Source: Thermoplasma sp.
GTDB lineage: Archaea > Thermoplasmatota > Thermoplasmata > Thermoplasmatales > Thermoplasmataceae
DNA length: 33,781 nucleotides
Assembly (NCBI RefSeq): GCF_023256435.1
Contig: NZ_JAGDXM010000039.1
Location: 1 to 33,781, forward strand
Reading direction: 5' to 3'
The notes beneath the pieces are model-generated. The model was given only the letters and a program-made list of their open reading frames with translations, did no database searches and was not told where the DNA came from. Positions 101 through 33,061 of this stretch are shown piece by piece. Position numbers and translations under genes: made by a program. Each line of letters starts with the position of its first letter. The stretch's first letter is position 1.

Positions 101-110
101 CTTAAATATA
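101..110 (+). promoter_or_regulatory. TATA-like box of the APC permease gene
   Basis: The A/T-rich stretch cttaaatata lies about 25 nt upstream of the ATG at 130, the spacing expected for an archaeal TATA box driving a leaderless transcript. No Shine-Dalgarno sequence precedes the ATG, which supports a leaderless mRNA. The call rests on spacing and composition only. Confidence 0.5.
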
Positions 111-129
111 GCGAACCAATATTATAATC

Positions 130-153
130 ATGACTAATGATATCATTAGTCAT
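130..153. promoter_or_regulatory. Perfect 24-bp palindrome covering the start codon
   Basis: From the A of the ATG, the sequence ATGACTAATGAT is followed directly by its exact reverse complement, giving an uninterrupted 24-bp palindrome that encodes the first eight residues (MTNDIISH). As DNA it could bind a dimeric repressor at the transcription start. As the 5' end of a leaderless mRNA it could fold into a 10-bp stem with an AUAU loop and bury the start codon. Neither role is proven by sequence alone. Confidence 0.6.
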
Positions 154-1711: not shown

Positions 1712-3460
1712 TCACTGAATGATTTGTGTTGTTTCCTGTTTAATCTCCTTGGGTGGAGGCTCGCATCCTTCGAGCCAGATTTCAGCGAGAGTCTGAAAAT
1801 CTGGTGGTGTCAGTCCCTTCTCTATTTTCACATCCAGAACTGCTGGAAGATTGCTTTTCTCTGCCCTTCGCAAGCCCTCTTTCAGCTCGCTTGGGGTTCT
1901 AACAGTCTCGCCGAAACAGCCCATGCCCTTGGCAATTTCCGCATAGTCCATAGACCCGAAATCCACACCAACATATCTTTTATCGTAATAGAGTGTCTGT
2001 CCTGATTTGATCATACCCCATGAATCGTCGTTAAGTACTACGCAAGTAAAGTGAATGCCCAGTCTTCTGGCAGTCTCAAGTTCGGAAACATTGTAGCCAA
2101 ATGAGCCATCTCCTGTAATACAGTAAACCTTATTCCTTGGCCTGGCAAGTTTTGCGGCTATTGCATAGGCGATGCCCGTTCCTATGTAGCCTGAATCACC
2201 AGCTGAGCTGCTCAGGAAGGTGTTTGGAAGGAAGACTCTATTTGCATAATGACTCCATACTGTGGTGTTTCCGCCATCGATAACAGCTATAGAATCCCTT
2301 GGATAGAAGGATCTAACCTCAGCTATTACTCTCAAGGGGTGCATAGGAACAGCATCGGATGTCATATATTCCTCAAATTGTCCAGTCCACTGTTTCTCAA
2401 GATCCTTATATATTGCAATATATTCCCGTTCCTCGGGCATAGCAGATTCTGCCTTAAGTCTCTCTATAATTGATCTCAATGTAGCCTTGATATCGCCTAC
2501 AGCACCAATAGTTACTGGCCTGTTCATTCCAATCTGTTCACCAGATATGTCTATCTGGATGAATCGCTGTTTGTCCAGATCCCCCCATATGGGTGGCCTA
2601 CCGAAAAAATCAAGGTCGCCCAGTTTGGATCCAAGCACAATTACAAGATCGGCTTCTGATTGAGCGTTTATCGCGCCGTAGCTCTGTGGTATGAGCGCCA
2701 GGCGATGATCCTCAGGTATTGATCCTCTGCCAGAGATGGAAGTCGTCACAGGTATATTCATAAGTTCTGCCAATTCCAGAAGCTCTTCTGAGGCACCTGA
2801 TCTAAGGACGCCTCCGCCTGCATGTATCAATGGTCGTTTTGCCCTTCTGATCTCCTCGCAGATCATCTTTACTGTTTCGTCGTCAGGACGTATCCTGCCA
2901 GTAGCCCTGTACTCATTCGGGTTCTTTATTTTCACGTCATTTTCTTCGCCGGTTTGATGCAGTATGTCTGATGGTATATCTATATGAACGGGTCCAGGAG
3001 ATCCATAAAATGCCATCCTTATGGCCCTCTCCGTGATCTCCGTTATTCTATTCCAGGAGTTTATCACGGCGTTCCATTTGGTGACTGCATGTAAAAGAGA
3101 GTATTGATCAAGTGCCTGCATTGAACCATGATCAGGATAAGAACGAAAGGTCTGATTCTGTGCGGTTATAACCAGCATTGGTATATTTTCCGATGATGCG
3201 GGATATATTCCCCCCACCAGATTAGCCACACCAGGGCCAACAGTAGCTGTAACCACTCCTATTTCTCCAGTTGTCCTCGCCCAGGCATCTGCTGCATGAG
3301 CCGCTGCAGCTTCATCATGAAATGTTATGAATTTTATGTCGGAGTCGTATATAGCATTGAGAAAAGGATAAAGCTGATCGCCTGGAACTCCAAATACGTA
3401 CCGAACATTTTCCTTTTCAAGTATTCTTTTTAAAATTTCTCCTCCCGTTATGCGAGACAT
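1712..3460 (-). CDS. TPP-dependent enzyme, acetolactate synthase / pyruvate oxidase-like
   Basis: Predicted cytosolic thiamine-diphosphate enzyme acting on pyruvate or another 2-oxo acid. Three domains can be followed in order: the N-terminal Pyr domain with the glutamate that activates TPP (FHDEAAAAHA, E53 of the track ORF); a central domain around residues 190-340; and the C-terminal PP domain with the GDGSFGYN motif (453-460) and its Asn-Asp partner (ND, 480-481), which bind Mg and diphosphate. The length, about 582 residues, fits acetolactate synthase large subunits, pyruvate oxidases and related lyases. No regulatory small subunit lies nearby, so a catabolic role is more likely than branched-chain synthesis. 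The start was moved to the ATG at 3460 because GAGGTGAT sits just upstream; the track's GTG at 3469 would lie inside that ribosome-binding site. It is the last gene of the operon, 10 nt after the SCP2-like gene. The exact reaction is not resolved. Confidence 0.85.
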   Translation of the reverse strand: MSRITGGEILKRILEKENVRYVFGVPGDQLYPFLNAIYDSDIKFITFHDEAAAAHAADAWARTTGEIGVVTATVGPGVANLVGGIYPASSENIPMLVITAQNQTFRSYPDHGSMQALDQYSLLHAVTKWNAVINSWNRITEITERAIRMAFYGSPGPVHIDIPSDILHQTGEENDVKIKNPNEYRATGRIRPDDETVKMICEEIRRAKRPLIHAGGGVLRSGASEELLELAELMNIPVTTSISGRGSIPEDHRLALIPQSYGAINAQSEADLVIVLGSKLGDLDFFGRPPIWGDLDKQRFIQIDISGEQIGMNRPVTIGAVGDIKATLRSIIERLKAESAMPEEREYIAIYKDLEKQWTGQFEEYMTSDAVPMHPLRVIAEVRSFYPRDSIAVIDGGNTTVWSHYANRVFLPNTFLSSSAGDSGYIGTGIAYAIAAKLARPRNKVYCITGDGSFGYNVSELETARRLGIHFTCVVLNDDSWGMIKSGQTLYYDKRYVGVDFGSMDYAEIAKGMGCFGETVRTPSELKEGLRRAEKSNLPAVLDVKIEKGLTPPDFQTLAEIWLEGCEPPPKEIKQETTQIIQ

Positions 3461-3470
3461 GATCATCACC

Positions 3471-12368: not shown

Positions 12369-12427
12369 AATGATATATGACTATGGCATTACATATTACT
12401 TTTGAAATAGTCATTTCAGCGTAAGTA

Positions 12428-15526: not shown

Positions 15527-16597
15527 ATGACGGACAACGAACTCGGAAGCAACCCAGATCATGCCAACATAATATCGATATTACAGGATCTGGGGCTCAC
15601 AGAGAATGAATCGAGGGTCTATATACTGTTGCTGGAGTATGGTAGCATGGCCGCTCAGGATATACTCAGATATCTCCCGCTCAGACAGCCTCAACTGTAC
15701 GATATCACGTCGAGTCTGGAGAGGAAAGGTTTCATAAACATACTGCTGGGCCGTCCGAAAAAATACGAAGCTGTCGATCCAGAGGCTGTCGTTGAAGCAA
15801 GGGAACAGATAATAAGCAGGAACAGAAGATATTTCCTCAACTGGGCCAACCGTGCAATGGAGACAAGGAGGGAGACCACAGCGCTGATCAATGCAAAGAA
15901 CATCAGGAGTGTGATAAACAACTCCATAGAACTTATCAATGAGGCAAGCAAGACTCTGGAGATAGAGACGACATGGGAACTCTATGGATACCTAGGCAGC
16001 TCAATAGCAAGAAAAGTGAGGGAGGGATGTCGCGTTGAACTTCTCTTCTTCGGTGCAGATATCGATGAATCTGATCTTGAGAATGAATTCATGGATCTGG
16101 ATATAGACATAAAATATGTTGCGCCTGGCCAGTTTTACACCGTAATATCAGATGAGAAGAACTCTGTTTTCATGCCGAGAAGCGTCGCAATGAACACGGA
16201 GATCGAAAGGTATGGATACGTGATAAGGGACAAGGACATGTCGTGGTTCATCACGCATAATTTCTTCGTGGGATGGTACCGCGGAGAGGAGATAAGGAAT
16301 CACCCTGTTAAGCCTTCCTATACATATTATTCCCAGAGGGTGCTTGTGAATGATCTGAAGAGGCTGTTCAGGAGTGGTCAAAGGATGAAAGGCGTGCTTG
16401 ATGGAACGTTCAGATCAACCGGTGATCATTTCAGGTCGGAGGGAGAGGTGATAGAGATAGATTCTGACACGGAGATCATCAACTTCACGTTTAAAACAGA
16501 GAAAGGGCAGTATAAGGTGGGCGGCTATGATTCACAGATAGAGGACATAGTGATGAAGTCGTTCACGGTTATGTCCATAGAGGACGCGAAACGATGA
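15527..16597 (+). CDS. TrmB-family sugar-responsive transcriptional regulator
   Basis: Archaeal transcription regulator of 356 residues with the two-domain TrmB plan. The N-terminal winged helix (about residues 15-85) includes LGLTENESRVYILLLEYG, the recognition-helix region PLRQPQLYDITSSLERKGFI and the wing LLGRPKKYEAVDP. A coiled-coil-like linker (EAREQIISRNRRYFLNWANRAMETRRE) follows, then the C-terminal sugar-binding/dimerisation region from about residue 120. TrmB proteins repress or activate sugar ABC-transporter operons and release DNA on binding the imported sugar. Here the promoter carries the same operator-like sequence as the ABC operon promoter at 24.4 kb, so control of that operon and of itself is likely. 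The gene is convergent with the end of the ABC operon. ATG 15527 lies about 25-30 nt from the TATA-like element and has no clear SD, so leaderless. Confidence 0.9.
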   Translation: MTDNELGSNPDHANIISILQDLGLTENESRVYILLLEYGSMAAQDILRYLPLRQPQLYDITSSLERKGFINILLGRPKKYEAVDPEAVVEAREQIISRNRRYFLNWANRAMETRRETTALINAKNIRSVINNSIELINEASKTLEIETTWELYGYLGSSIARKVREGCRVELLFFGADIDESDLENEFMDLDIDIKYVAPGQFYTVISDEKNSVFMPRSVAMNTEIERYGYVIRDKDMSWFITHNFFVGWYRGEEIRNHPVKPSYTYYSQRVLVNDLKRLFRSGQRMKGVLDGTFRSTGDHFRSEGEVIEIDSDTEIINFTFKTEKGQYKVGGYDSQIEDIVMKSFTVMSIEDAKR

Positions 16598-31633: not shown

Positions 31634-33061
31634 TCAAGCTTCGGTCGCATGAGGCGATACATCTTGCATATACATTGCGATTTTGTCAGGGTGTATTTTC
31701 ATCTCCACAAATGTCATAACTGCTGAAATGGGTATCCAGGCTATGCCAACATAGGCAGCGATATTGAATGGATAAGAGGGCGGTGCAGGATACATCGTGA
31801 AGAACATGACCGCAATCAGCACACCTATGGCTATCGCTGGAAATATCAGGTGCTGGAACAGGTGAAAATCTTTCATCTTCTTTGCATAGAATGGAAGCCC
31901 TATGGACGCCACTATGTGCTCAGTATAAGCCGAATAGCCATTAGCGAACAGCATCACCAAGCCTCCGATTACAGGCCCGAAAAGCGCGCCGAAAATTATG
32001 GCAAGGACAAGCGATAAGCCGAATACGAACATGGCCGAAACCGACGGAGATCCGTATTTGCTGTGTACCTTTGACATGGATTTAGGCAGAAAGAGGAGTC
32101 CGGATTTCGCAAAGCTGTAATATATCCTCGAGTTTGCGTTGCTTACTGAGACGTTGTATCCCATAAAACTGTTAATGGTTACGATTATGAGCAGTATGTA
32201 AAGGATGTAGCTTGCCTTTTTGAAGAGCATTATCCCCGGATCTGGAGCGGATGCGAAGTTTGCCATGTTTGCAGGCCCATATCCGATTGTGAACGCGTAT
32301 GAAACCAATATGAGCGTTATGCCCGCGACTATGACCGTAGAAATTAGGGCTTTCCTGACAGCAACATGTGAATTTTTAGTTTCCTCAGCAAGGGACGTAA
32401 TTGAAAGCGTAGTTCCAAAGAATAGAACGACGGAATATATCATTGAATAGAATAGCTGTGAGAGGCCTCCAGGAAGATACTTGGTCGTGAAAACTGCCAA
32501 GGTGTTAGCATGACCGGCAGATACTATGATGGCTATAGATCCAGCTATTAGCACGGATATCTCGATTAATCCACCTAAGATTTGGTAATCCGTTGCTACC
32601 TTGATGCCAAAGTATGTAAATAGGAACGCGATCAGAGCAGCGACAACTGAAATGCTTATCCATACCCATGCACCGCTAAGCGATGGATTGATGAGACTGA
32701 TAAAGGAAGCGAGGCCGAGAAATCCAAAGCTAGCATATCCAAGTATTGAATAGAAGAACATGTTCCATGCCTGAAACACACCCGCAGTCTTTCCAAGAGA
32801 TTTATATGTAAAGGTAAAATATGATCCGGCGGATGAAATATACTTCGAGAACTGATACCCTGTGTTCATTATGAAGAGGTAGAAGATAATGCCCAGCAGG
32901 ATCGAGAGCGGAGTTGCACCAAGAGCAAACAGAGCGACACCGGTGAGCAAATATGCGGCATCTGCGGCGATCGATAGAGTTCCCATGGCCTGCCATATCA
33001 GTCTGAACTCGCCTATTACATTCTTTTTTAGAGTTGTGCTCGAATTGTCAGATATTTGCAT
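31634..33061 (-). CDS. APC superfamily amino-acid permease
   Basis: Predicted amino-acid importer of 475 residues with about 12 membrane segments. TM1 region: MGTLSIAADAAYLLTGVALFALG; the NTGYQFSKYISSAGSYFTFTYKSLG segment corresponds to the YQFSK loop of the permease at 130-1575, so the two are distant paralogues. The mid-protein SNANSRIYYSFAKSGLLFLPKSMSKVHSKYGSP is the conserved cytoplasmic loop of the superfamily ('s..R.....ardg..p..l.kv....tP'). The ATG at 33061 has no SD; A/T-rich DNA upstream would allow a leaderless transcript. It converges on the unrecognised gene with a shared terminator, and is divergent from a third permease at 33550. Substrate not assignable. Confidence 0.88.
   Translation of the reverse strand: MQISDNSSTTLKKNVIGEFRLIWQAMGTLSIAADAAYLLTGVALFALGATPLSILLGIIFYLFIMNTGYQFSKYISSAGSYFTFTYKSLGKTAGVFQAWNMFFYSILGYASFGFLGLASFISLINPSLSGAWVWISISVVAALIAFLFTYFGIKVATDYQILGGLIEISVLIAGSIAIIVSAGHANTLAVFTTKYLPGGLSQLFYSMIYSVVLFFGTTLSITSLAEETKNSHVAVRKALISTVIVAGITLILVSYAFTIGYGPANMANFASAPDPGIMLFKKASYILYILLIIVTINSFMGYNVSVSNANSRIYYSFAKSGLLFLPKSMSKVHSKYGSPSVSAMFVFGLSLVLAIIFGALFGPVIGGLVMLFANGYSAYTEHIVASIGLPFYAKKMKDFHLFQHLIFPAIAIGVLIAVMFFTMYPAPPSYPFNIAAYVGIAWIPISAVMTFVEMKIHPDKIAMYMQDVSPHATEA

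Follow-up and report, generated by a model that had tools for sequence, protein, structure and literature searches.

The window analysed here (the 33,781-nucleotide stretch formed by bases 1-33781 of contig C35, which has 34063 bases in a Thermoplasma genome of 1.55 Mb) carries near its beginning a perfect 24-bp palindrome that coincides with the start codon of an amino-acid permease gene (Table 1), and the question raised by this locus is whether the palindrome serves as a regulatory switch or is an accident of the sequence. The arm ATGACTAATGAT abuts ATCATTAGTCAT at 130-153 with zero spacer and zero mismatch, in agreement with the description given by the first-pass annotation of this DNA, and the first base of the palindrome (130) is the A of the permease ATG. 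The placing of the palindrome exactly at the start of an APC permease, claimed in the same annotation, also held: the ORF has Pfam hits and this start is its sole plausible one, with no alternative in-frame start ahead of the conserved part of the protein.

Table 1. Positions of the palindrome, the promoter element and the permease gene within the window
Feature	Position	Strand	Remarks
Perfect 24-bp palindrome ATGACTAATGAT/ATCATTAGTCAT	130..153	.	As RNA: 10-bp stem, AUAU loop
TATA-like box TTAAAT(A)	102..107	+	-28 from ATG; predicts a leaderless transcript from base 130 or adjacent
APC-superfamily amino-acid permease, 481 aa	130..1575	+	Pfam PF00324, PF13520

The number of such palindromes expected per window of like size is 0.0024, and the earlier statement that one is very unlikely by chance in a 34-kb window is correct in that the palindrome is unusual for one window. 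For the whole genome, 0.10 perfect palindromes with arms of at least 12 are expected under independent bases, and Markov simulations of order 2, 3 and 5 (8 runs each) produced 0, 0 and 0.25 palindromes of exactly 24 bp per genome, respectively; an arm of 12 is within chance reach for one genome (0.10-0.25 expected). The palindrome at 130-153 is the longest perfect one in the genome and the sole zero-spacer one with arms of at least 11 (1.52 Mb, 98.5% of the genome, searched), and the longest perfect palindrome in 800 kb (half) of the genome of a congener (G001) measures 22 bp. With about 1500 genes or starts assumed, ~1e-4 palindromes of 24 bp per genome should be anchored exactly at a start codon by chance, and ~3e-3 should overlap a start in any register; both figures were calculated after the fact. 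The palindrome is rare, yet its description was picked post hoc, and very large scans should be expected to yield some such cases.

A TATA-like box had been placed about 25 nt upstream of the ATG; the element found there is TTAAAT, at -28. Across 975 ORFs of the genome, the positions of TATA-like hexamers relative to the ATG show a sharp maximum at -28/-29. The permease box sits on this peak, no SD-like motif is present at -15 to -4 of the permease start, and TATA-like boxes also lie upstream of the permease orthologues. The gene has the two marks of a leaderless mRNA, a promoter element ~25-30 nt upstream and no Shine-Dalgarno sequence, and the predicted start of the transcript at or beside the ATG, as proposed before, is well supported by this layout. 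Leaderless mRNAs are in wide use in Thermoplasma according to a review, and leaderless archaeal mRNAs (Thermoplasma, Halobacteria, Saccharolobus) likewise have a TATA-like box ~28 nt before the ATG and no Shine-Dalgarno sequence (PMC7531240); the permease differs from these in that its start codon is predicted to lie inside a stable hairpin, as happens only rarely in the putative leaderless genes of its genome.

Among four congeners, a close copy of the permease was found in Thermoplasma sp. FL only, the remaining three holding only paralogues (about 55-57% identity or less), and the permease is therefore an accessory gene in the genus. The palindrome is absent from all nine orthologues compared (62-88% protein identity), namely those of Thermoplasma sp. 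FL, Ferroplasma, Acidiplasma, Thermogymnomonas and five MAGs; the own species is represented in this comparison by one strain, and all other sequences come from different species. The nearest orthologue, that of FL (88% identity), begins with MMTDTTSVQTLK and its promoter DNA aligns poorly with that of the permease, and the other eight orthologues are 62-74% identical. The N-terminal tails, which precede a conserved (Q/R/K)xLK motif, differ in length and sequence (MMTDTTSVQTLK, MERISEGRTLK, MEKVSESKTLK, MDGISEAQTLK and others), and the promoter layout is common to the orthologues despite these variable tails. As the tail varies in both respects, constraint on it is weak and its base patterns are free to drift. 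The comparison of the first eight codons that had been suggested for the palindrome thus revealed no conservation in any of the nine; the narrower comparison of identical peptides with a broken palindrome is not strictly applicable, as the orthologue peptides also differ over the first codons.

The temperature optimum of T. acidophilum is 59 °C. For the 24-nt hairpin, the predicted stabilities are -10.7 (37 °C) and -5.5 kcal/mol (59 °C). When 60 nt are folded at 59 °C, the AUG is predicted to have its G ~1% unpaired and, through fraying, its A and U 69% and 33% unpaired. Among 199 putative leaderless ORFs (those with a box at leaderless spacing), the start region of the permease ranks second in stability; the starts of this set average -0.87 kcal/mol (SD 1.16) against -1.49 kcal/mol for internal coding sequence, and are accordingly less structured. 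The first rank is held by another putative leaderless gene, G000:C49:31016 (L157 11040-11981); in its FL and G001 relatives the first residues are identical or almost so, but base changes abolish the hairpin (from -5.65 to -0.2 and -0.45 kcal/mol, respectively). The loss of this hairpin with the peptide start largely kept suggests that start hairpins of such strength appear and vanish in the genus with no evident constraint. As a yardstick, start hairpins so strong are rare in this genome, and the two strongest are both unconserved in relatives.

Sister sites were sought in the genome and beyond. When up to 3 mismatches were allowed, the full site matched itself only, both in its own genome and across 117 genomes from the order. 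Relaxing the limit to 6 mismatches added two matches in the own genome (shuffled palindromes give 0-2), every second site in 1.52 Mb differing at 6 or more positions. The half-site with 1 mismatch gave 10 further matches, with ~7 expected from a simple count and 2 for a backward control. One of these lies upstream of another permease (C18:4491) and was rejected as a sister site, being placed inside the 3' end of an apparent metG gene without a partner arm. Inverted pairs of 7-8-mer half-sites were confined to the permease locus except for one 7-mer pair at 12377-12414, and the genome-wide half-site search that had been recommended thus gave no recurrence of the tested half-sites as pairs. The two arms of this exception, ATGACTAT...ATAGTCAT, form a spaced inverted repeat that immediately precedes a saccharopine-dehydrogenase-like gene. 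In the nearest species (G002), where the saccharopine-dehydrogenase-like protein is 94% identical, the promoter is almost identical and one ATGACTAT...ATAGTCAT arm is broken, which speaks against selection on the repeat as a dyad, and it was not retained as a sister of the palindrome. The window also encodes a TrmB-family regulator (15527-16597), with genes for an MFS transporter and a DeoC/LacD-family aldolase next to it; this protein was considered as a binder of the palindrome and dismissed, as it is encoded 15 kb away beside those genes and nothing links the two.

Comparison of sequences lends no support to either of the functions proposed for the palindrome, an operator at +1 or a hairpin that hides the AUG. 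As an operator, the palindrome would be bound as DNA from +1 to +24 by a dimeric repressor, blocking initiation or early elongation. Palindromic operators can overlap archaeal transcription starts, and the permease site likewise has perfect dyad symmetry immediately downstream of its promoter; a repressor of a single gene would require no other genomic site. In contrast to such operators, the permease palindrome comes without a regulon, a conserved site or a candidate protein: it is neither conserved in orthologous promoters nor recurring at other promoters, its tested half-sites do not recur as pairs, the nearest species has a broken version of the similar spaced repeat at 12377-12414, and the upstream contig sequence, at 129 bp, is too short to show an adjacent regulator gene. 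An operator is, on this evidence, quite improbable. Control at the level of translation, in which the 5' hairpin of a leaderless mRNA would hide the AUG and restrain permease synthesis, possibly being released by temperature or another signal, is rather unlikely. The predicted stability of the hairpin and the nearly complete pairing of the G of the AUG favour it, as does a precedent in haloarchaea, where a 5'-UTR stem-loop (-7.4 kcal/mol) tunes translation and its stabilisation abolishes translation (PMC2636863). The haloarchaeal stem-loop, likewise near the start and of similar predicted stability, sits within a 5'-UTR and has been probed by mutation, whereas the permease hairpin, a predicted one, has no UTR and is not conserved. 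A conserved cis-regulatory hairpin would have its pairing kept or covarying in orthologues, and here it is missing from all nine; neither an alternative pairing partner nor a sensor was found, the comparable hairpin of G000:C49:31016 is not conserved, and the transcript start itself is placed from the promoter layout. Of the earlier proposal, the RNA fold over the AUG stands as a possible predicted structure, and the switch function is unsupported. A species-specific translational switch, with a hairpin at the extreme 5' end of a leaderless mRNA that would sequester its own AUG and be opened by heat or another signal, is a very slim prospect; if functional, it would mean that structure on the start codon itself can control a leaderless mRNA, a mechanism little documented in archaea.

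The palindrome is absent in all relatives compared and has no sister sites, and it therefore has the look of an oddity due to chance or mutation, not of a regulatory switch. It is probably a lineage-specific accident, due to chance or a template switch, in the unconstrained N-terminal tail of a putatively leaderless permease gene with no dedicated regulator. Counting against an accident are the exact anchoring at the ATG (~1e-4 per genome, a post hoc figure) and the stability rank of 2/199, in a set where starts average less structure than internal coding sequence. Such an accident, presumably neutral in origin, would have arisen in tail codons 1-8, by chance base changes or by a one-step template-switch (quasipalindrome-type) mutation, and would not have originated as a switch. 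Given a leaderless mRNA, the 10-bp hairpin would be likely to form at the 5' end in vivo and passively lower translation; a hairpin over the start, if formed, should reduce translation, and the effect of the palindrome would be passive damping at most. Template switching can make perfect spacer-less palindromes in one step, and quasipalindrome mutation is known to create perfect adjacent inverted repeats in a single event (PMC8794818; also PMC8604942). Unlike those cases, the permease site has no ancestral sequence near enough to reveal switch points, the nearest orthologue (FL) having diverged in the tail and the upstream region where they would show, and for want of such an ancestor chance and template switching are inseparable as its origin. 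An artefact of sequencing or assembly close to the end of the contig, which would fit the position of the palindrome about 130 bp into C35, has next to no probability, as the inverted repeat ends cleanly at 24 bp, neither flank recurs in the genome, the reading frame runs unbroken across the start, and fold-back artefacts normally run to the contig end. The palindrome itself is real, and what falls short is a supported function; even so striking a perfect palindrome, placed at a start codon, can find no support at all from comparison.

The 129 bp upstream have no further copy in the own genome or in the congeners, and their origin from a mobile element or repeat was rejected. For an acetolactate-synthase-like TPP enzyme (1712-3469, - strand), none of the four other Thermoplasma genomes gives a match at E <= 1e-60, which suggests that this end of the contig carries an accessory segment. 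Near the other contig end, at 31634-33061 (- strand), lies a second APC permease, diverged from the first (33% identity).
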